From contig NZ_JAUMKB010000003.1 in the NCBI RefSeq assembly GCF_030519375.1, positions 186,001 through 250,000 of the forward strand: a stretch of 64,000 bases of DNA, in the 5' to 3' direction. The notes below the pieces were generated by a model. It was given only the letters and a program-made list of their open reading frames with translations. It did no database searches and was not told where the DNA came from. Of this stretch, positions 1 through 9,468 are shown piece by piece. Both the position numbers and the translations under genes were made by a program. How positions within the stretch are numbered: position 1 is the stretch's first letter; each line of letters starts with the position of its first letter. The DNA comes from Mucilaginibacter tolerans. Its GTDB lineage: Bacteria; Bacteroidota; Bacteroidia; Sphingobacteriales; Sphingobacteriaceae.

Positions 1-1880
1 CGCGCCGTTGCCGCGATTGTAAAATAGTTTTTATAAGAAATGTCCGCTGATCCGTAAACACTGGTCGTTATCAGGTCTGAATCAAAATTATAGGCTCTTA
101 GCGGATTAATTGTGTTTTGGAAAGTGTAAACATCATGGATCAATAACTCATCTGTCGATACAAAGCTTGATGTATATTTCAGAGTGCGCAAAGTACCGCC
201 GGCAAGGGCGTTAATAGTAACCCCACTGTTCACTATGTTATTAAAATTATACTTTAACAACAGGTCGGTATTATTTTCAAACAGGTCCCTTCTGTCTTCA
301 CGATAATTACCATGGTTGTGTTCGTCGCCATAAGGGTGCGCTGAGAATGGCTCTTTTTCCGTCCTTAAAACATCATAAGTAGTAATGTTTGAGCGCAATG
401 TAATATCAAAGTCTTTATTAGGGCTGTAGGTAAATGCACCCCAACCATAAATATCATTTTTGTAGTGGCCATGTAACCATTCATAGCTCTGGAACCAAGG
501 GTTATGATAACGTTTGTATTCCACAAATAATGATTGGATACCTTCTTTTCCTGGCTGCCAGTAATTGCGCACCTGGTTTATATTCCAGTCAGCACCTGTC
601 CAAATGTCAACGTTGTAGATTATACTGTTGGGCCCATAAGTTACGTCAGGAATATTGTCAGTGAATTGGCGGTTATAGTTAAGGTTACCCTCAACTTTAA
701 ACTTTTTACTAAAATTATATCCTGCCAGAATATTAAAGTTAACAGTATTTACCCCTGTATTAGGCGTAATACCGCGCTGATAACCGTGTGTAACCGACAT
801 ACGAACATTTGACTTTTCTGATGTAGACGAAATGGCTATGTTATTGCTGGTTAATACACCTGTTTGTAAAAAGCCTTCCAGGTTATTTACACCACGCGCA
901 ACCCATGGCGTAGGTTTTATATGTCCTGTAAATGTTGATCCATCCAAAAATGTAGTGGTATAGGTTTTAGTAGGATCATTCACGCCGTCATATTGCGGAA
1001 GTAACAAACCTGCGTTTAAACGTGGGCCCCAAACATCATAGTCGCCATCATTTACGCCACCACCTGCTCCGTCCCCAAAAGCGTATTTGTCATTATCACC
1101 ACCGCCATAATTATTTTGTACTTTAGGTATGGCAATAAACCCTTTGTTGAACTGTGTGCTGGAGTTTAATTCAACGGTAAATCCCCTTTTTTCGGCTTTA
1201 CCTCTTTTTGTTGTAATCAATATAGCTCCATTAATACCTCTACTGCCATATAGGGCTGCTGCTGTAGGCCCCTTTAGTATGGTATAGCTATCGATATCAT
1301 CGGGATTAATATTGTGCGTATCAGAATTAATAGGAATACCATCAACGACATAAAAGTTAATTGGAGAACCGCGCAATAGCACAACCGGAGACGCGAGCAA
1401 TTCCTGGTTTATGCCTACGTTTAAGCCGGCAATTTTACCGGTTAGACCGTTAATCGGATCTGCTTCACGCGCCTTGATGAGTTCTGCACCTTTGATCTCC
1501 TGTACAGAATATCCAAGCCGTTTAGTTTCTTTTTTGATACCAAGCGCGGTTACAACAACCTCGTTAAGCACTTTGCTTTCGGCTTTGAAGTTGACATTGT
1601 ATGTGGTTTCATCACCTACAGTTACTACCTGTTGTGAATAACCTACATATTTAAAAATAAGGACTTGCCCTTTACTGGCATTAATAGAATAATGCCCATT
1701 GACATCTGTAACGGCGCCGACTGCGGTACCTTTGACAAGGACACTGACTCCCATCATAGGCTGCTGGTTTTCATCGGTTACCACACCGGCGATTTTGGTT
1801 TGCCCGAATGAGAGTACCGGGGCAAGGAATAATAACGTCATCGTTATCATTGTCCTTAAGTGAATGTAAAGCTGCTTCAT
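1..1880 (-). CDS. SusC/RagA-type TonB-dependent receptor, N-terminal part
   Basis: Outer-membrane TonB-dependent importer; about 626 N-terminal residues are present and the rest runs off the left edge. The ATG at 1880 opens a signal peptide ending near SFGQ. A carboxypeptidase-regulatory-like domain follows (roughly residues 25-110), then the plug with the SusC hallmarks VVDGIPI and YGSRGINGAILITTK (about 165-225). No SusD partner can be judged because downstream lies outside the window. Its promoter region shares an exact 24-base block with that of the phosphonatase-like gene at 3563, so uptake of a phosphonate or phospholipid-derived ligand is a reasonable inference. The family is clear; the substrate is inferred only from context. 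Confidence 0.93.
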   Translation of the reverse strand, partial: MKQLYIHLRTMITMTLLFLAPVLSFGQTKIAGVVTDENQQPMMGVSVLVKGTAVGAVTDVNGHYSINASKGQVLIFKYVGYSQQVVTVGDETTYNVNFKAESKVLNEVVVTALGIKKETKRLGYSVQEIKGAELIKAREADPINGLTGKIAGLNVGINQELLASPVVLLRGSPINFYVVDGIPINSDTHNINPDDIDSYTILKGPTAAALYGSRGINGAILITTKRGKAEKRGFTVELNSSTQFNKGFIAIPKVQNNYGGGDNDKYAFGDGAGGGVNDGDYDVWGPRLNAGLLLPQYDGVNDPTKTYTTTFLDGSTFTGHIKPTPWVARGVNNLEGFLQTGVLTSNNIAISSTSEKSNVRMSVTHGYQRGITPNTGVNTVNFNILAGYNFSKKFKVEGNLNYNRQFTDNIPDVTYGPNSIIYNVDIWTGADWNINQVRNYWQPGKEGIQSLFVEYKRYHNPWFQSYEWLHGHYKNDIYGWGAFTYSPNKDFDITLRSNITTYDVLRTEKEPFSAHPYGDEHNHGNYREDRRDLFENNTDLLLKYNFNNIVNSGVTINALAGGTLRTLKYTSSFVSTDELLIHDVYTFQNTINPLRAYNFDSDLITTSVYGSADISYKNYFTIAATA

Positions 1881-1916: not shown

Positions 1917-1957
1917 CAGCAATACTAAACTTAGTTTATTATTTGTAAACTAAGTTA
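1917..1957 (-). promoter_or_regulatory. Promoter with twin palindromic operator before the SusC gene
   Basis: On the minus strand this holds TAGTATTG (1927-1920), one base off the Bacteroidota -7 element TAnnTTTG. A perfect 13-base palindrome TAAACTAAGTTTA (1926-1938) abuts it, and a second copy with one arm imperfect lies about 20 bases upstream (1946-1957). Bases 1917-1940 are identical, in reverse complement, to 3520-3543 before the phosphonatase-like gene. Overlap with the core promoter suggests repression. The XRE-cupin protein at 2815 is the natural candidate ligand-sensing regulator, by inference. Confidence 0.75.
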
Positions 1958-2068
1958 ATATTAAGGAAAGCTTAAGATTATGTCTTAAACACGTTAAGGA
2001 GGGTAGTTTATGTAACAGCTGAGTTACAATCGACTTACAATTATTTAATATTCGGCAGAGGCACCGAA

Positions 2069-2656
2069 TTAGTTATTATCATAAAGATGGTTTAACGCCA
2101 ACGATTTCAGATGTTCCAGATCCTGAACTGGAACATTCATTTCTTTAGCCTGATCGTCCCAATAACGTAGCTTGATAAACAACTCAGCATCAGGGTGATT
2201 TTCAAATTCGATCGCTTCCTCATCAGTCATGCGTCCTCCCTGGAATTCAAGGGTAGCCTTACTGGCATCGGACAATTTATTATAATATTCAGGGTATTTA
2301 TAAGTAAGGTATCTTTTGGCGATAACATGGCTTTCGACCAAAGTGGCAAGCCGTTCAGAGAAGCCTCGCTCCCGCAAATAGTCAGCGCCTAATTTCTCAT
2401 GGTCAACATTTCCAAAACCATCCATGCTCTCGGCTTCGGCCTGTTCGGCACATAAATGGCCGATGTCATGAAAAAATGCGGCTAAAATAACTTCGTCATC
2501 AAAACCTTCTTCCTCAGCCAATACAGCCGCTTGCGACATGTGCTCTAATTGGGACACCGGTTCGCCTATATAATCTTCGTCGCCATGCTTTTCATACAGA
2601 GCGAACACTTCTTCAACAATATCTTCAGGTGTAGTTGCGGCGCGGTTCATAGACAT
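2069..2656 (-). CDS. PhnZ-like HD-domain protein of phosphonate degradation operons
   Basis: 195-residue HD-domain protein of the type found in phosphonate operons. PhnZ, the characterised relative, is a mixed-valent di-iron oxygenase that cleaves the C-P bond of 1-hydroxy-2-aminoethylphosphonate to glycine and phosphate. Visible are the substrate/metal segment YIGEPVSQLEH (about residues 29-39), the HD motif FFHDIGH (about 61-67), a later EKLGADYL and ESHVIAKRYL histidine segment, and the C-terminal YWDDQAK. Two ATG codons lie at the start (M1 and M3). It is transcribed away from the regulator at 2815. No PhnY hydroxylase, which would make its usual substrate, is present in the window, so the exact substrate is open. 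Confidence 0.85.
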   Translation of the reverse strand: MSMNRAATTPEDIVEEVFALYEKHGDEDYIGEPVSQLEHMSQAAVLAEEEGFDDEVILAAFFHDIGHLCAEQAEAESMDGFGNVDHEKLGADYLRERGFSERLATLVESHVIAKRYLTYKYPEYYNKLSDASKATLEFQGGRMTDEEAIEFENHPDAELFIKLRYWDDQAKEMNVPVQDLEHLKSLALNHLYDNN

Positions 2657-2814
2657 ATAGGTTATGACACAAATAAAAGTATCAGATATTATTAAATTAT
2701 TAAATTTTCATGATTGATTCACCTATCCCGATTAAATTGCCTTTTATTGCAAACCAATTTTTAAAGTTCTATTTTGGAATACCATTATAAATATACCAAC
2801 GTTTACTTGTTTCT

Positions 2815-3390
2815 ATGGAAGATGATATACTGATCCAAATTAGTAACCGGATAAAGGAGCGCAGGCGCGAACAAAATATTACTGTACAAGAGCTGGCCAG
2901 CCAGGCAAATGTAAGTAAGGGCCTAATTTCCCAGATTGAAAATAGCCGCACCATACCATCTTTGATGGTGCTGATCGATATAATCAGGGCGCTGAATATT
3001 GACCTGAATGAGTTCTTTAAAGATATGCGGACAAAAACCAATGCATCGCCTGTGTTGATAAAACGGAAGGACGAGTATGACCATTTTGAAAAAGAGTATG
3101 CCATTGGATTTCATTACAAACGGATATTCACCAGGTTCATTGATCATTCTACTGTAGATATTGTGATCCTTGAGCTGGCGCCAAACGCAACACGGCCGCT
3201 GGTTGAAACTGATGCTTTCGAATACAAGTACATCATATCCGGCCAGATAGAATACCAGATAAACGGAGATAGAATACTTTTAGGCCCAGGTGATTCTTTA
3301 CTGTTCGACGGGCGCATACCCCATACCCCAGTCAACATGAGCGATGAAACAGCCAGTATGCTGGTTGTCTATTTTTTTGAGGAGAAGTAG
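2815..3390 (+). CDS. XRE-family regulator with C-terminal cupin
   Basis: 191-residue transcription factor. The N-terminal helix-turn-helix (about residues 8-63) has the typical pattern VQELASQANVSKGLISQIEN. The C-terminal cupin_2 barrel (about 115-185) ends with GPGDSLLFDGRIPHTP. Such two-domain regulators sense a small metabolite in the cupin and usually repress a nearby catabolic operon. It sits between the divergent PhnZ-like gene and the phosphonatase-like operon, and is the best candidate to bind the palindrome at 1926-1938 and 3522-3534. I see no copy of that palindrome in its own upstream gap, so autoregulation by the same site is not indicated. Confidence 0.9.
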   Translation: MEDDILIQISNRIKERRREQNITVQELASQANVSKGLISQIENSRTIPSLMVLIDIIRALNIDLNEFFKDMRTKTNASPVLIKRKDEYDHFEKEYAIGFHYKRIFTRFIDHSTVDIVILELAPNATRPLVETDAFEYKYIISGQIEYQINGDRILLGPGDSLLFDGRIPHTPVNMSDETASMLVVYFFEEK

Positions 3391-3476
3391 GTTAGAGATT
3401 AGAGGTTAAAGATTAGAGATCAGTAACCACGCGGCGATTTTTCCCAATCTCTAGTCAACTAATCTTTAATCTTTAA
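3391..3476. repeat. Intergenic imperfect inverted repeat (GATTAGAG words)
   Basis: The left arm (3391-3420) is built of repeated GATTAGAG/GGTTAAAGATTAG words. The right arm (3444-3476) is the same vocabulary in reverse complement (AATCTCTAG, CTAATCTTTAATC). A non-repetitive centre of about 24 bases separates them. It lies between the regulator stop and the operator of the next gene and could form a long hairpin. It belongs to a family of such elements in this window. Confidence 0.6.
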
Positions 3477-3502
3477 AAAGACAATTAATCAAACCTTAAC
3501 AC

Positions 3503-3543
3503 TAAATTAGTTCGATATTAATAAACTAAGTTTAGTATTGCTG
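3503..3543 (+). promoter_or_regulatory. Promoter with palindromic operator before the phosphonatase-like operon
   Basis: TAAACTAAGTTTA (3522-3534) is a 13-base palindrome overlapping the -7-like TAGTATTG (3533-3540). Upstream, TAAATTAGTT at 3503-3512 is a degenerate second site at about the same 20-base spacing as before the SusC gene. The whole block 3520-3543 is identical to the SusC promoter block. Transcription would begin about 16 bases before the ATG at 3563. Confidence 0.75.
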
Positions 3544-3562: not shown

Positions 3563-4249
3563 ATGTCCATTAAATTAGTTGTTTTTGATATAGCCGGCAC
3601 TACTGTTAAGGATGATCACAATGTAAGCAAGGCCTTTAAAGCTGCGCTGGCAAAATATAACTATGATGTTCCGCTGGAATTGATCAACCCGCTAATGGGG
3701 TATGAGAAAAATCTGGCTATTACCCAAATGCTTCATTTGCATGAGCCGGACACATCAAAGATCACTCCCGAATTGGTCAATGAAATACACCGCGAGTTTG
3801 TAAAGCAAATGATCCACTTTTACAAATTTGAGCCGGGTATTGAGCCACTCCCAAATGTTGAAGAAACCTTTGCTGCTTTGCATGACGCCGGTGTTCTGGT
3901 AGGTATAAATACGGGCTTCTCAAAAGACATTGCCGAAACGGTAGTGAATCGCCTGCAATGGCGCGAGAAAGGCCTGATCGATTACCTAATCGGTTCTGAT
4001 GAAGTAGCGCTTGGCCGCCCTCATCCGTTCATGATACAGAAAATAATGCAAGAAAGTGCCATTACTGATCCGCTTGAAGTGGCAAAGGTCGGCGATACCG
4101 AAGTTGATGTTCGTGAAGGCCAAAGTGTGGGTTGCAAATATGTTATCGGCGTTACAACCGGTATATTTACAAGAGAAGAACTGGCAGGATACCACCCAAC
4201 TCATATTATCGACAACATCGCTGAAGTACTGGATATCATCAAACAATAA
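3563..4249 (+). CDS. Phosphonatase-like HAD hydrolase (PhnX-like)
   Basis: 228-residue HAD-superfamily enzyme of the phosphonatase-like group that is syntenic with phosphonate genes. True PhnX hydrolyses phosphonoacetaldehyde to acetaldehyde and phosphate. Motif I is VFDIAGTTV (Asp nucleophile near residue 9). Motif II is the GINTGFS segment (about 113-119). The C-terminal acidic motif is KVGDTEVDVREG (about 175-186) with a GVTTG tail. The cap between motifs I and II is alpha-helical. The gene starts the operon behind the palindromic operator and is 2 bases from the membrane protein gene. The substrate may be phosphonoacetaldehyde or a related aldehyde; the sequence does not settle it. Confidence 0.87.
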   Translation: MSIKLVVFDIAGTTVKDDHNVSKAFKAALAKYNYDVPLELINPLMGYEKNLAITQMLHLHEPDTSKITPELVNEIHREFVKQMIHFYKFEPGIEPLPNVEETFAALHDAGVLVGINTGFSKDIAETVVNRLQWREKGLIDYLIGSDEVALGRPHPFMIQKIMQESAITDPLEVAKVGDTEVDVREGQSVGCKYVIGVTTGIFTREELAGYHPTHIIDNIAEVLDIIKQ

Positions 4250-4251
4250 GC

Positions 4252-5565
4252 ATGAAATTGATTGATCAGTGCAGACAAAAAGTAGCCAAATGGCCTTATG
4301 GGCTGTTGTCGGTAATGGCTGCTATCTCGTCTTTCGGAGCATATACTTGTATGTATGCTTTCCGTAAGGCATTTGCCGCCGGCACGTTCAGCGGTCTTCA
4401 ATATCTTCATATCGATTATAAAGTATGGCTGGTGATCACTCAGGTTATTGGCTACACCTTAAGTAAATTCTACGGCGTCAAATTCATTTCCGAATTAAAA
4501 CCGGGACAAAGAGCAAAATACATTTTGATGCTGATCGGCATAGCCTGGGCAGCCTTATTGTTTTTCTCTATAGTTCCAGCACCATATAATATAATTTGTC
4601 TATTTATTAATGGGTTTCCGCTTGGATTGATATGGGGATTGGTATTCGGCTACCTGGAAGGGCGTAAATCAACTGAGTTTATGGCAGCAGTTTTATCTAT
4701 CAGTTTAATATTTGCCTCAGGTTTTGTGAAGACCGTTGCCCGGATGCTGATAAGTTCATTTCACATCAGCGAATACAGCATGCCCTTCATTACAGGAGCT
4801 TTATTCGTAATCCCCTTGCTGCTGTTTGTTTTCATGCTTGAATTGATGCCCCCTCCAACGCCAGAGGATATCCGCCTGCGCACCAAACGCTTGCCGATGG
4901 ATGCAGCCGAACGTAAAAGCTTTTTGCAGAGATTTTTGCCGGGCATTATCCTTACGCTTATCATTTATGTGCTGCTCACTATCATGCGCGATGTTCGCGA
5001 CAGTTTTGAAGTCGAAATATGGAACAGCATGGGCATAAAGGACAACACGATCTATACCAAAATTGATACCATCATATCAGTAATTGTACTGATCGCGATG
5101 AGCTTACTCATTTTGATTAAGAGAAACCTGAAAGCATTCAGTTTGATCCACATCATGATCATTTCCGGCTGTGTGCTTATTGGTATAGGGACCGTCTTGT
5201 TTACTTTTAACCTGATCAGTCCTATGGTTTGGATGACTCTTGCAGGGCTGGGGCTTTACATGGGATATGTGCCCTATAACGCCGTCTTCTTCGAACGCTT
5301 ATTGGCATCCTTCCATTACAAAGGCAATGTGGGCTTTTTAATTTATGTAGCTGATTCCATGGGATATTTGGGCAGCGTGAGCGTGCTTTTAGTAAAAGAG
5401 CTGGGGCAACCAAGTGTAAGCTGGGGCGTATTTTTTAAAGACAGCGTGCTGGCGGTAGCGGTTATAGGCGGTATATGCGCAACATTATCGTTATTATACT
5501 TTATGCGAAGCGCCCGGAAAGATAAACTGGATCAGCAAGGACAACTGAATATTTTACCTGTATGA
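4252..5565 (+). CDS. DUF5690-type multipass membrane protein, MFS-like
   Basis: 437-residue integral membrane protein with about 12 hydrophobic segments and the N-terminal signature AYTCMYAFRKAF (about residues 29-40) of the DUF5690 family, which resembles major-facilitator transporters. It starts 2 bases after the phosphonatase-like gene, so translation is probably coupled, and it precedes the FAD oxidase gene. Placement suggests inner-membrane uptake of a phosphonate or organophosphate, or export of its product. No substrate-binding residues can be read out. Confidence 0.8.
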   Translation: MKLIDQCRQKVAKWPYGLLSVMAAISSFGAYTCMYAFRKAFAAGTFSGLQYLHIDYKVWLVITQVIGYTLSKFYGVKFISELKPGQRAKYILMLIGIAWAALLFFSIVPAPYNIICLFINGFPLGLIWGLVFGYLEGRKSTEFMAAVLSISLIFASGFVKTVARMLISSFHISEYSMPFITGALFVIPLLLFVFMLELMPPPTPEDIRLRTKRLPMDAAERKSFLQRFLPGIILTLIIYVLLTIMRDVRDSFEVEIWNSMGIKDNTIYTKIDTIISVIVLIAMSLLILIKRNLKAFSLIHIMIISGCVLIGIGTVLFTFNLISPMVWMTLAGLGLYMGYVPYNAVFFERLLASFHYKGNVGFLIYVADSMGYLGSVSVLLVKELGQPSVSWGVFFKDSVLAVAVIGGICATLSLLYFMRSARKDKLDQQGQLNILPV

Positions 5566-5651: not shown

Positions 5652-6776
5652 ATGAAAAACTCTTCGGCCATAGTTATTGGCGCCGGAATCGTGGGCCTCG
5701 CTACTGCCCGCGCATTAGCTATAAGAGGCTACCGTGTCACCGTTTTTGAACGCAACGAACGTGCTGTTGGCGCATCTATCCGCAACTTTGGGATGGTGTG
5801 GCCCATCGGTCAGCAAACAGGTCCGATGTTTGAGCGAGCTATGCTGACGCGAAGCATTTATAAAGCAATATGTACTGAAGCTAACATCTGGCACAATGAG
5901 GTAGGTTCGTTACACTTGGCTTATCACAACGACGAGCTACAGGTAATAGCCGAATATGTTGAGGCGAATAAGCAATACCGCGATTGCGCTTTACTCACAC
6001 CCAAGCAGGCTTTGGACAAATCGCCTGCCGTTAACCCTGATGGTTTAAAAGGCGCTTTATGGAGCGGCGAAGAAATGATCATCGAGTCGAGGGTTGCGGT
6101 TGGACAAATTGCAGCTTATTTGGCCGAAAAACATGGCGTAGATTTTCACTGGAACACAGCTATCAATAAAATAGAATACCCTTCAGTATTTTCGGGCGAA
6201 CGCAGCTGGCGGGCAGATGAAATATTCGTTTGCAGCGGCGCGGATTTTGAGTCTTTATACCCGGCCTTGTTTTTGGAGACAAAGATTACCAAATGCAAAC
6301 TGCAAATGATGCGTTTGGTAGCTCAACCCGACGGCTGGCGTATTGGCCCGTCGTTATGTGGTGGTTTATCCATGATCCACTATCCTGGTTTCCAGATCGC
6401 ACCGTCACTGCCGGCGCTACGCAAAAGATACGAAGAGCAATATGGCGAATATCTGAAATGGGGCATCCACGTAATGGTTTCTCAAAATGGCGGTGGCGAA
6501 CTTACTATCGGCGATTCGCATGAATATGGCCTGGTGCACGATCCATTCGATAAAACATTTATTAATAACCTGATAACCGATTACTTACATACATTCGCCA
6601 ATTTTAAGGACTGGCAACTGATGCAGTCGTGGCATGGCATTTATCCCAAAATGATGAATGGCCAAACCGAGCTGATCGTTGAAACAGAACCGGGGGTGAC
6701 CGTGATCAACGGGCTAGGGGGTAACGGCATGACCTTATCCTTCGGGCTTTGCGAGCAGTTTTTTGCTTCTCGTTAG
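5652..6776 (+). CDS. FAD-dependent oxidoreductase of phosphonate clusters (DAO fold)
   Basis: 374-residue flavoprotein of the D-amino-acid-oxidase fold. The N-terminal dinucleotide motif is VIGAGIVGLATARAL (about residues 8-22), with the second strand ending in VFERN. The C-terminal FAD contact is INGLGGNGMTLS near residue 355. Members of this group (TIGR03364) co-occur with phosphonatase-like hydrolases and are proposed, in some cases shown, to deaminate aminoethylphosphonate or N-methylated forms oxidatively. Here it would replace the missing PhnW transaminase and deliver an aldehyde to the hydrolase at 3563. It lies 86 bases after the membrane protein in the same orientation. The exact substrate is inferred. 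Confidence 0.85.
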   Translation: MKNSSAIVIGAGIVGLATARALAIRGYRVTVFERNERAVGASIRNFGMVWPIGQQTGPMFERAMLTRSIYKAICTEANIWHNEVGSLHLAYHNDELQVIAEYVEANKQYRDCALLTPKQALDKSPAVNPDGLKGALWSGEEMIIESRVAVGQIAAYLAEKHGVDFHWNTAINKIEYPSVFSGERSWRADEIFVCSGADFESLYPALFLETKITKCKLQMMRLVAQPDGWRIGPSLCGGLSMIHYPGFQIAPSLPALRKRYEEQYGEYLKWGIHVMVSQNGGGELTIGDSHEYGLVHDPFDKTFINNLITDYLHTFANFKDWQLMQSWHGIYPKMMNGQTELIVETEPGVTVINGLGGNGMTLSFGLCEQFFASR

Positions 6777-6906: not shown

Positions 6907-9468
6907 ATGAGCGACTCAAGAAGAGATTTTCTAAAAAAAGCAGCTTTACTAGCTGGGGCAACCGGATTGGCTAATATCATCCCCGTTTCCATTCAAAAAG
7001 CAATGGCCATCAATGCTCCCGAAGGAAGCACTTATATGGACGCCGAACATATCGTGATACTGATGCAGGAAAACCGCTCTTTCGATCATACTTATGGTAC
7101 ACTGCAGGGTGTCCGTGGCTATAATGACCCACGTGCTATTGATTTGCCTAACAAAAACAAAGTATGGTTACAATCGAACGCCGAAGGTGAAACCTATGCA
7201 CCTTTTCACCTGGATATAAAAAATACAAAAGCTACCTGGATGAGCTCGCTGCCGCACTCTTGGGCCAACCAGGTAAACGCCCGCAATGATGGCAGATATG
7301 ACCAATGGCTGAATGTGAAAAAGAACGGCATTAAGGAATACAGTCACATACCACTCACAATGGGCTTCCACAACCGTGAAGATATCCCATTTTATTATGC
7401 ACTGGCCGATGCGTTTACTGTTTGCGACCAGAATTTTTGTTCATCACTAACAGGTACAAACCCCAACAGGCTTTATTTTTGGACCGGTACCATACGCCCT
7501 GAACAGCACGAAAACTCAAGGGCGCATGTATGGAACGATGATATGGATTACGGCACTTTAAGATGGAAGACTTTTCCTGAACGCCTGGAAGAGAATGGCA
7601 TCTCGTGGAAATGCTACCAGAATGAAGTAGCCATCGATACCGGTTTTGAAGGCGATGAAGACCCGTGGTTATCGAATTTTCAGGATAACCCACTAGAGTT
7701 TTTCGGACAATATAATATCCATCTGCATCGGAAGCACATTGAAGCGCTGGAAAAAAGATCGGCCCGGTTACCGCAAAAAATCGACGAGCTTCAGAAAAAG
7801 ATCGCTTCGCTGCCTGCAGGTGATGCCCACATCGATCACCTGAAACATGAGCTGAAAGATCTGCAGAACTATCTGACCAGCGTAACCAGAGAAAAAGAAT
7901 TATACAAAGCGGGTCAGTTTGAGGCTTTATCAGATCATAAAAAAGCTTTACATAAAAAAGCCTTTGCTACTAACGCTAATGATCCTGATCATCGCGAGCT
8001 GATCACTTTAAAATATAACGACAACGGCACCGAACGTGAAATGCAGGTTCCAAAAGGCGACGTGTTGTACCAATTCAGGGATGATGTCAAAAATGGCAAA
8101 TTGCCAACGGTGGCATGGGTTACTGCGCCTGAACGTTTCAGCGACCACCCTAGCTCGGCATGGTATGGTGCCTGGTACGTATCGGAAGTATTGGACATCC
8201 TGACACAAAACCCCGAAGTATGGAAGAAGACCATCTTCATCCTGGCCTACGATGAAAATGATGGTTATTTCGATCATGTGCCGCCGTTTACTGCTCCGCA
8301 CTCCCGAAGACCTGAAACGGGCAAGGTTTCAAAAGGTTTGGATACCAGAGTTGAATATGTAACACTTGAACAGGAAAAAGAGCGCAAGGGGTTTCCTGAG
8401 CCATTTGACCGCGAATGCTCTATCGGTCTTGGGTTCCGCGTGCCGCTGGTAATTGCATCCCCTTGGAGCAAAGGTGGGTATGTGAACTCGGAGGTGTTCG
8501 ATCATACTTCTACTCTGCAATTTTTGGAGCATTTCTTATCCAAAAAAACAGGCAAGAAAATAACGGAAACCAACATCAGCGATTGGCGCAGAACTGTTTG
8601 CGGCGACCTAACCTCTGTTTTCCGGCCTTATCATAGTGATGTGATTAAAAACCCCGAATTTGTAAAGCGAGACCCATTTGTTGAAGGCATTCACAAAGCA
8701 CAATTCAAAAAACTGCCAAACGATTACAAGCTTTTAACCAAAGAGGAAATTGCACAGGCTAACCATGCACCGCATAATTCGCCTTATTTGCCGAAACAGG
8801 AAAAAGGCACACGTCCGGCATGTGCCATCCCGTATGAGTTGCATGTGGATGGCAAGTTAAGTGCTGACAAAAAATCATTTGATATTGAATTTACTGCTGC
8901 CAACAAAATCTGGGGCGAGAAAGCCGTGGGTGCCCCTTTTAATGTATACGCTCCCGGAAGCTACAAACAAACTAATGGTAAATTCGAAAACCTGCGCACC
9001 TGGGCTTATGGCTTAACCGCAGGCGATACTTTAGCCGACAGCTGGCCAATAGAAGATTTTGAGGACAAGAATTATCATTTAAGAGTATACGGTCCAAATG
9101 GCTTCTACCGCGAGTTTAAAGGTAATGCCGGAGATCCATCTGTACACATCGGTTTTAGTTATCAACATGCACAACTCGATGGTAAAAAATTGACCGGCAA
9201 TGTGATTGTTGAGATCAGCAATCAAACTGACAAACCACAAACTATTGAGGTTAAGGATAACGCTTATAATCTAAACAATCATCAGCGCGTAGTGGTACCT
9301 GTATCAGGCAAGGCTTTGATCATTTTAAACCTGGATAAAAGCCATCACTGGTATGATTTCAGCGTGAAAATAAACGGTCACAACGGATTCGAAAAACGTT
9401 ATGCCGGCCATGTGGAAACAGGGCAAAGCAGTTATACCGATCCGCTAATGGGTGGCATGTTCGTCTGA
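6907..9468 (+). CDS. Phosphocholine-type phospholipase C, Tat-exported
   Basis: 853-residue member of the phosphoesterase family of non-haemolytic phospholipases C, which cleave phospholipid head groups outside the cytoplasm. The N-terminus has a twin-arginine signal (SRRDFLKK, residues 4-11) followed by a hydrophobic stretch. The catalytic domain has VILMQENRSFDHTYG near residue 50 and FILAYDENDGYFDHV near 443. A charged helical insert sits at about 277-355. Two copies of the PLC C-terminal beta-sandwich domain follow (about 635-740 and 750-840). It ends the phosphonate block and faces the same way. It could release phosphocholine or an aminophosphonate head group from lipids for the upstream genes, an inference from position. 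Confidence 0.9.
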   Translation: MSDSRRDFLKKAALLAGATGLANIIPVSIQKAMAINAPEGSTYMDAEHIVILMQENRSFDHTYGTLQGVRGYNDPRAIDLPNKNKVWLQSNAEGETYAPFHLDIKNTKATWMSSLPHSWANQVNARNDGRYDQWLNVKKNGIKEYSHIPLTMGFHNREDIPFYYALADAFTVCDQNFCSSLTGTNPNRLYFWTGTIRPEQHENSRAHVWNDDMDYGTLRWKTFPERLEENGISWKCYQNEVAIDTGFEGDEDPWLSNFQDNPLEFFGQYNIHLHRKHIEALEKRSARLPQKIDELQKKIASLPAGDAHIDHLKHELKDLQNYLTSVTREKELYKAGQFEALSDHKKALHKKAFATNANDPDHRELITLKYNDNGTEREMQVPKGDVLYQFRDDVKNGKLPTVAWVTAPERFSDHPSSAWYGAWYVSEVLDILTQNPEVWKKTIFILAYDENDGYFDHVPPFTAPHSRRPETGKVSKGLDTRVEYVTLEQEKERKGFPEPFDRECSIGLGFRVPLVIASPWSKGGYVNSEVFDHTSTLQFLEHFLSKKTGKKITETNISDWRRTVCGDLTSVFRPYHSDVIKNPEFVKRDPFVEGIHKAQFKKLPNDYKLLTKEEIAQANHAPHNSPYLPKQEKGTRPACAIPYELHVDGKLSADKKSFDIEFTAANKIWGEKAVGAPFNVYAPGSYKQTNGKFENLRTWAYGLTAGDTLADSWPIEDFEDKNYHLRVYGPNGFYREFKGNAGDPSVHIGFSYQHAQLDGKKLTGNVIVEISNQTDKPQTIEVKDNAYNLNNHQRVVVPVSGKALIILNLDKSHHWYDFSVKINGHNGFEKRYAGHVETGQSSYTDPLMGGMFV

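Follow-up and report, generated by a model that had tools for sequence, protein, structure and literature searches.

A block of 24 bases, AATAAACTAAGTTTAGTATTGCTG, occurs twice at the left end of the window (the 64,000-nt stretch of the Mucilaginibacter tolerans genome analysed here), where two predicted operons, a leftward susC operon and a rightward phosphonate operon, flank the gene of an XRE-cupin regulator. Based on comparisons of sequences across related genomes, this block is probably an operator that the XRE-cupin protein encoded between the operons binds and shuts until a phosphonate metabolite binds its cupin domain. The two copies (1917-1940 on the minus strand and 3520-3543 on the plus strand) had been described in the initial annotation as identical and as containing a palindrome, TAAACTAAGTTTA, with an overlapping -7-like promoter box, TAGTATTG, and direct reading bears this out. 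The end of the palindrome provides the TA of TAGTATTG, which differs by one mismatch from the Bacteroidota -7 consensus TAnnTTTG (consensus TAnnTTTG/TTTG, PMC7366714 and PMC2483708). The exact 13-mer TAAACTAAGTTTA is found in these two places only, both in the window and in the whole genome of 5,203,152 bases, and thus the exact form does not recur in this genome before unrelated genes. When up to three mismatches were allowed, 32 palindrome matches were found in the window compared with 34.7 expected, i.e., at chance level; therefore, the analysis was limited to exact or extended forms, and what distinguishes the block is its exact form together with the conservation of that form.

A search of named genome records for the regulator yielded 67 loci, 35 of which have the gene order susC - HD-domain gene - regulator - phosphonate operon (L018-L049, L057, L061, and L062) and were used for promoter alignment; as the contig of L029 stops short of the phosphonate genes and neither susC nor the HD gene is seen in L047, each region is represented by 34 loci. 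Exact TAAACNNNGTTTA was detected in the space between susC and the HD gene in 34/34 loci (dinucleotide-shuffle mean 0.095) and between the regulator and the phosphonate genes in 31/34 (shuffle mean 0.075), and the three misses (L023, L031, and L032) have one mismatch within the ten half-site bases. Orthologous loci carry the block before both operons. Across all 67 loci (1.26 Mb), 91 matches of TAAACNNNGTTTA were found versus 8 for the reversed control. The aligned promoters share a common build, namely TTAA-n5-8-TTAA, a second palindrome 20 bases upstream, TAA, the palindrome, and nTATTGCT. A chance repeat was rejected by the exact genome count and the loci of relatives.

The 24-base identity of the two blocks in this genome might suggest that one promoter was recently copied locally onto the other, with no regulatory meaning. 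However, this is hardly credible, considering that relatives whose regulator is as little as ~57% identical still have both sites, that the two sites often differ within a genome (e.g., TAAACAAAGTTTA before susC and TAAACTTAGTTTA before phnX in L025), and that sequences outside the block differ; a recent duplication is contradicted by the relatives and was rejected. It is also very improbable that the block is just a strong core promoter common to two genes, in which palindromy is incidental and nothing specific binds. The block does hold the -7-like box, in which TAAACNNNGTTTA ends in both promoters, and extends towards the -33 region, but both palindrome arms are exact in 34/34 and 31/34 regions though just the right end belongs to the promoter, the three central bases vary, and the motif depends on the presence of one regulator gene, as described below.

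A weaker second site about 20 bases further upstream had also been proposed for both promoters; it is clear before susC but weak before the phosphonate operon (see the table). In relatives, the right half of the second site at -20 reads GTTTA in 34/34 susC promoters and GTTT in 29/35 phosphonate promoters (for L046, L061, and L062, the susC second site was counted from the upstream palindrome, i.e., in the other register, because the proximal palindrome is degenerate). Site doubling as a general feature was rejected: at least 7 of 10 half-site positions were matched at -20 in 5 of 40 related sites (39 sites far from the regulator, see below, plus that of genome G144) and in none of 22 unrelated sites. 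Since doubling is rare outside this locus type, one palindrome can be regarded as the core and the pair as special to susC-HD-regulator-phosphonate loci.

Among the 32 loci outside the alignment, 10 have at least one TAAACNNNGTTTA, which lies before a phosphodiesterase-PhnX-regulator operon (L050, L051, and L054), before SusC and HpnW genes (L059), before the DUF5690 gene (L052 and L078), between the regulator and an HpnZ operon (L060), or within SusC or other coding sequences (L053, L055, and L075). In seven loci (L018, L021, L028, L041, L045, L046, and L047), phnX is absent from the operon; the operator then stands before the DUF5690 gene and HpnW is kept. Candidates for carbon-phosphorus (C-P) bond breakage in these phnX-less operons are the HD oxygenase or a hydrolase elsewhere.

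Because the regulator was detected (E <= 1e-30) in only 17 of 345 genomes of the whole class, six of them from the organism's own family, the motif question was confined to this family (Sphingobacteriaceae), in which 251 genomes were searched at the same threshold and with an extended, strict pattern, TAAACWWWGTTTANNWTTG. The strict pattern has 143 sites versus 20 for the reversed control, and it is present in 77/94 genomes with the regulator versus 11/157 without it (Fisher test 2.5e-35, not corrected for phylogeny). To separate the effect of the regulator from that of the pathway, HpnW (TIGR03364) was sought in the same genomes; among the 91 genomes containing it, the motif was found in 74/82 with the regulator versus 2/9 without it (Fisher test 2.4e-5, phylogeny ignored). 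In G180, which belongs to the same genus, the HD, phnX, DUF5690, and HpnW genes are present, the regulator is gone, and the genome has no strict match; no intergenic site with up to one mismatch was detected within the 13 kb examined. Six regulator-less HpnW genomes from other genera have no strict match either, their upstream promoters lying partly outside the stretches examined, and in two of them (L229 and L230) a one-mismatch form is located at a gene junction.

The 143 strict sites comprise 81 within 3 kb of the regulator, 51 farther away in regulator-bearing genomes, and 11 in regulator-less genomes. All of the 51 far sites and the 11 sites of regulator-less genomes were examined with their surroundings, and far sites were sorted by BLAST against the genes of these loci and by family hits (FecI/FecR sigma/anti-sigma, ComEC, and RND efflux genes as well as PbfA of L187 were named by eye). 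Thirty of the 51 far sites stand before phosphonate or organophosphorus genes, one of them divergently. The genes behind them include those for phosphonatase-like proteins, DUF5690, HpnW, HpnZ alcohol dehydrogenase together with an MFS transporter, HD oxygenase, PbfA (NF049939 matches of 675 and 679 bits, cut-off 525), phosphodiesterases, and phosphonoacetate hydrolase. Behind the 11 sites of regulator-less genomes, phosphonate genes were found for that of G144 alone. The proposal of the initial annotation that the XRE-cupin protein encoded at 2815 is a likely repressor linking the TonB receptor with phosphonate catabolism is supported by the co-occurrence of motif and regulator, by G180, and by the far sites before phosphonate genes. 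It is likely that genes for import, transport, and C-P cleavage make up a single predicted regulon, which the XRE-cupin protein would repress.

Several observations weigh against this interpretation. With up to one mismatch, the palindrome is not enriched in this genome (16 places versus 21 for the reversed control); of the 14 further one-mismatch places, one is the second site at 1946-1958, two form a single inverted repeat (see below), and no link to phosphonate genes was seen for the other 11. Both association tests ignore phylogeny, and 17/94 regulator-bearing genomes lack the strict pattern, three of which (G212, G248, and G058) have the looser exact TAAACNNNGTTTA near the regulator; G174 possesses both regulator and locus, with mismatched sites only there. 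Nine of the 51 far sites lie before SusC-type receptors or sigma/anti-sigma/SusC clusters only, and 12 lie before unrelated genes or within or next to coding sequence (those of G055, G231, G174, G143, G075, and G208, one site each of G101 and G188, and one place that recurs in four copies, in G150, G233, G161, and G088). Only 2/34 loci have exact TAAACNNNGTTTA in the space that separates the HD gene from the regulator (shuffle mean 0.04), so that the HD gene lacks an operator of its own. Autoregulation, which is reported to be common in XRE proteins (PMC12565409), was rejected as the site is wanting there in 32/34 loci. For the homologues of the regulator in Algoriphagus, Flavobacterium, and Taibaiella (52-58% identity), no intergenic site was detected within 10 kb, and the helix SKGLISQIEN does not discriminate, as homologues lacking a nearby site have it too. 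Finally, two genomes without the regulator carry related sites: G144 retains an exact site before phnX, and G116 has a one-mismatch site 42 bases before phnX (its strict match lies before unrelated genes).

The sites of G144 and G116 either speak against a strict tie between regulator and site or reflect recent loss of the regulator. They would also fit another regulator encoded elsewhere (a phosphate-starvation or global factor) that binds the palindrome, the XRE-cupin gene being merely nearby; in Flavobacterium, phosphate depletion induces SusCD clusters of the PUS type that lie beside phosphonate-degrading enzymes (PMC8115612). However, we regard this alternative as unlikely, considering that the motif tracks the XRE-cupin gene among HpnW genomes, that two strict copies in this genome are too rare for the site of a global factor, and that 30 far sites precede phosphonate or organophosphorus genes. 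A Pho-type global site is not favoured by the same rarity and tracking.

Other places with operator-like sequences were noted. In L153 (5003-5108), L155, L157, and L158, the operator is located before a sigma/anti-sigma/SusC cluster (named by eye), which in L153 is divergent from a phosphonoacetate-hydrolase-like gene; this suggests a cascade via an extracytoplasmic function (ECF) sigma factor. In L196, L197, L199, and L202, the strict pattern recurs where a ComEC-like gene (named by eye) begins, at a position that is orthologous in these four related genomes, and is probably due to coding conservation rather than an operator. The inverted repeat mentioned above (L006 6036-6074, G000:C2:90035-90073) is a perfect 16-base repeat, GGTAAACTAAGTTGAC n7 GTCAACTTAGTTTACC, each half of which is one mismatch from the operator; it lies before a small gene and a TonB-receptor-like gene and behind efflux-pump-like genes (named by eye), and is probably the site of another regulator.

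If the XRE-cupin protein is the repressor, a regulator dimer would bind each palindrome and cover the -7 box and, via the second site, the -33 region, so that RNA polymerase would be kept off. The 3' half of the second palindrome (1946-1958) lies about where the -33 box would be, and the position of the palindromes over the -7 box and, roughly, the -33 region suggests repression by exclusion of RNA polymerase, for which a precedent is available (PMC7901475). A phosphonate metabolite, the presumed inducer, would be bound by the cupin domain and release the regulator, which would switch on outer-membrane import by SusC/SusD with the phosphodiesterases, inner-membrane transport by the DUF5690 protein, and, by analogy with PbfD/PhnX, C-P cleavage by the FAD oxidase and the phosphonatase-like hydrolase. 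The compound used is likely an aminophosphonate or an aminophosphonate ester, for example the head group of a phosphonolipid or phosphonoglycan. For this operator, we infer binding as well as repression and the inducer.

The regulator (2815-3390) has the XRE-cupin architecture, with PF01381 (HTH_3) and PF07883 (Cupin_2) above cut-off, and its AlphaFold2 model (pLDDT 88.9) comprises a helical domain followed by a beta-barrel. Its architecture is similar to that of PuuR, but the score against the PuuR equivalog NF007408 (45.6 bits, cut-off 211) places it outside that family. Invariant columns in 39 homologues include R127, T132, E136, K138, and H170 of the cupin domain, which are candidate ligand contacts. 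The best Foldseek match of the model is 1y9q, an HTH_3 regulator of Vibrio cholerae, and the phosphonate-acting enzymes HppE, MPnS, HEPD, and Psf4 rank directly after it; HppE is aligned over both domains, having the helix-turn-helix (HTH)-cupin build in common. In VIA-align, many other cupins rank equal to or above the phosphonate enzymes, and HppE was not among the best 60 of 65 matches in a profile search of PDB sequences. Because HppE, MPnS, and HEPD have the HTH-cupin build, any XRE-cupin protein might match them, and we take this likeness of the model only as a lead to the ligand.

XRE-cupin proteins of Pseudomonas aeruginosa repress neighbouring genes from core-promoter sites, which are palindromic where a motif was derived (PMC7901475). 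The regulator studied here resembles ErfA, PsdR, and PauR of Pseudomonas in combining HTH and cupin domains and in the control of neighbouring metabolic genes (PMC7901475); a palindromic site in the core promoter is found at both flanking operons, where the regulator presumably binds. The Pseudomonas regulators target genes for peptides, polyamines, arginine, and other small molecules, and the word "phosphonate" is absent from the text of that paper. Unlike in Pseudomonas, the promoters here have a Bacteroidota -7 type box, the targets include a SusC/D importer, and sites may be doubled at 20 bases. The earlier view that operators of this regulator group are undescribed thus has to be narrowed, as palindromes of Pseudomonas XRE-cupin proteins have been described (PMC7901475), and it holds at most for the Bacteroidota phosphonate branch.

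The gene order (L005 and window), with SusCD beside a phosphodiesterase and phosphonate genes, is that of the Flavobacterium PUS/PusCD clusters, in which SusCD lies beside phosphodiesterases and phosphonate-degrading enzymes and which were proposed for organic phosphorus (PMC8115612). Those clusters are defined by induction on phosphate depletion, and several have ECF sigma or FecR-like regulators (PMC8115612), whereas the present system has an XRE-cupin regulator with its own predicted operator. Switching of phosphonate pathways, in some cases by substrate, is described for the proteobacterial regulators PhoB, PhnF, LysR-type PhnR/PalR, and CbrAB/NtrBC (PMC10574752, a 2023 review), none of the regulators named there being XRE-cupin; the main text of this review has no match for XRE, Bacteroid, or TonB. 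PbfD FAD enzymes oxidise N-methyl-2-aminoethylphosphonate and in some cases 2-aminoethylphosphonate (AEP) to phosphonoacetaldehyde, PbfD1 of A. baumannii is annotated as TIGR03364, and the FAD enzymes are clustered with phnX, often without phnW (PMC10590968), similar to the arrangement here; "regulator" has no match in the main text of that paper. A 2025 survey of XRE palindromes (PMC12565409) has no match for "phosphon" or "Bacteroid" in its available text, and a Pedobacter genome paper reports that its strains lack a complete AEP pathway (PMC4642753). No paper on this regulator or operator was found in the searches of open-access literature made here, subscription papers being mostly outside their reach. 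The kind of XRE-cupin repressor is known, and the regulon of importer plus pathway looks undescribed.

The features of the locus are listed in the table. The leftward operon has the order susC, susD, PF01663 phosphodiesterase, and glycerophosphodiester phosphodiesterase (GDPD), and continues left of the window on locus L005. The HD gene, which had been left out of the initial annotation, encodes a relative of phosphonate oxygenases. The phosphonatase-like hydrolase keeps the MGxxK lysine when aligned to phosphonoacetaldehyde hydrolases, presumably the Schiff-base lysine. A DUF5690 gene is found in most operons of this type among relatives. The phospholipase C gene is on the same strand as the phosphonate genes and has the same position in many relatives, and it possibly belongs to their operon. 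It is followed, both here and in L018, by a gene for a melibiase-type alpha-galactosidase (PF16499, 9601-11166 in the window), which is possibly linked to a glycolipid or phosphonoglycan substrate.

Table. Features at the left end of the window, with the observations on which each assignment is based.
Feature	Position	Strand	Basis
Operator palindrome TAAACTAAGTTTA (predicted) before susC	1926-1938	-	sequence, genome count, relatives
Operator palindrome TAAACTAAGTTTA (predicted) before phosphonate operon	3522-3534	+	sequence, genome count, relatives
-7-like box TAGTATTG of susC (predicted)	1920-1927	-	TAnnWTTG directly behind palindrome in 31/34 susC promoters
-7-like box TAGTATTG of phosphonate operon (predicted)	3533-3540	+	TAnnWTTG behind palindrome in 35/35 relatives
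Second palindrome TTAACTTAGTTTA, 20 bases upstream of susC palindrome	1946-1958	-	9/10 half-site positions
Weak second site, 20 bases upstream of phosphonate palindrome	3502-3514	+	5/10 half-site positions
Upstream TTAA-n7-TTAA element, susC side	1961-1975	-	TTAA n5-8 TTAA within 48 bases upstream in 30/34 relatives
Upstream TTAA-n7-TTAA element, phosphonate side	3485-3499	+	30/35 phosphonate-operon promoters
SusC-type TonB-dependent receptor, 5' part	1-1880	-	TIGR04057 above cut-off, TIGR04056 partial, PF07715
HD-domain phosphonate oxygenase, PhnZ/TmpB relative	2069-2656	-	TIGR03276 (phosphonate degradation HD-domain oxygenase) 223.5 bits, above cut-off 214.6; PhnZ 4mlm E 1.2e-47
XRE-cupin regulator, likely repressor of both operons	2815-3390	+	HTH_3 and Cupin_2; divergent from HD gene
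Phosphonatase-like HAD hydrolase (phnX-like)	3563-4249	+	relative of TIGR03351, not a filed member (175.4 bits, below cut-off 218.9); TIGR01422 103.5, below cut-off 220
DUF5690 protein, candidate inner-membrane permease	4252-5565	+	PF18943; transport role inferred
FAD-dependent oxidoreductase, HpnW/PbfD type	5652-6776	+	TIGR03364 435.4 bits, above cut-off 285.1
Phosphocholine-specific phospholipase C, Tat signal	6907-9468	+	TIGR03396 825.6 bits, cut-off 580.25

Comparison with L018, the nearest locus by regulator (93%), revealed an uneven pattern of divergence. Protein identity between the two is 87-94% for GDPD, the phosphodiesterase, the HD protein, and the regulator, but 49% for SusC and 48% for SusD. 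At the DNA level, identity is 93% across operator, leader, and signal peptide, falls to ~55% (30-68% per 100 bases) over the remainder of susC and susD, and rises again to 80-88% within the phosphodiesterase gene. The susC-susD pairs of L025 and L186 are closer to those of the window (56-88% similar per 100 bases, proteins 73-78%), and in L186 (genome G101) susC lies 9 kb away from the regulator and has the same operator. As the drop of identity relative to L018 is confined to susC-susD, these two genes appear to have been exchanged as a unit in this genome (window 1-1880 and L005 4946-9881), like a cassette under an unchanged operator and leader.

A wider picture may be tentatively drawn, which we regard as possible though, taken as a whole, somewhat doubtful: one XRE-cupin repressor would run a phosphonate regulon in Sphingobacteriaceae, in which SusC/D import and alternative C-P routes (HpnW/PhnX, PbfA, HpnZ, HD oxygenase, and PhnA) are placed under one operator. 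SusC/D would import a phosphonate-bearing lipid or glycan fragment as an exchangeable cassette under a fixed switch, and the sensor would be a phosphonate-binding cupin of the HTH-cupin build found in HppE, HEPD, and MPnS. The motif provides a testable means of grouping SusC/D pairs, DUF5690 proteins, phosphodiesterases, and phospholipase C with phosphonate catabolism across the family. If the proposed repressor function is true, SusC/D complexes would import C-P compounds under a dedicated repressor, DUF5690 would be a candidate phosphonate permease, and phosphonate use would become predictable from sequence in Bacteroidota, a phylum not named in the main text of the review of phosphonate degradation (PMC10574752). 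Nutrient import would then be tied to phosphonate use in these organisms.

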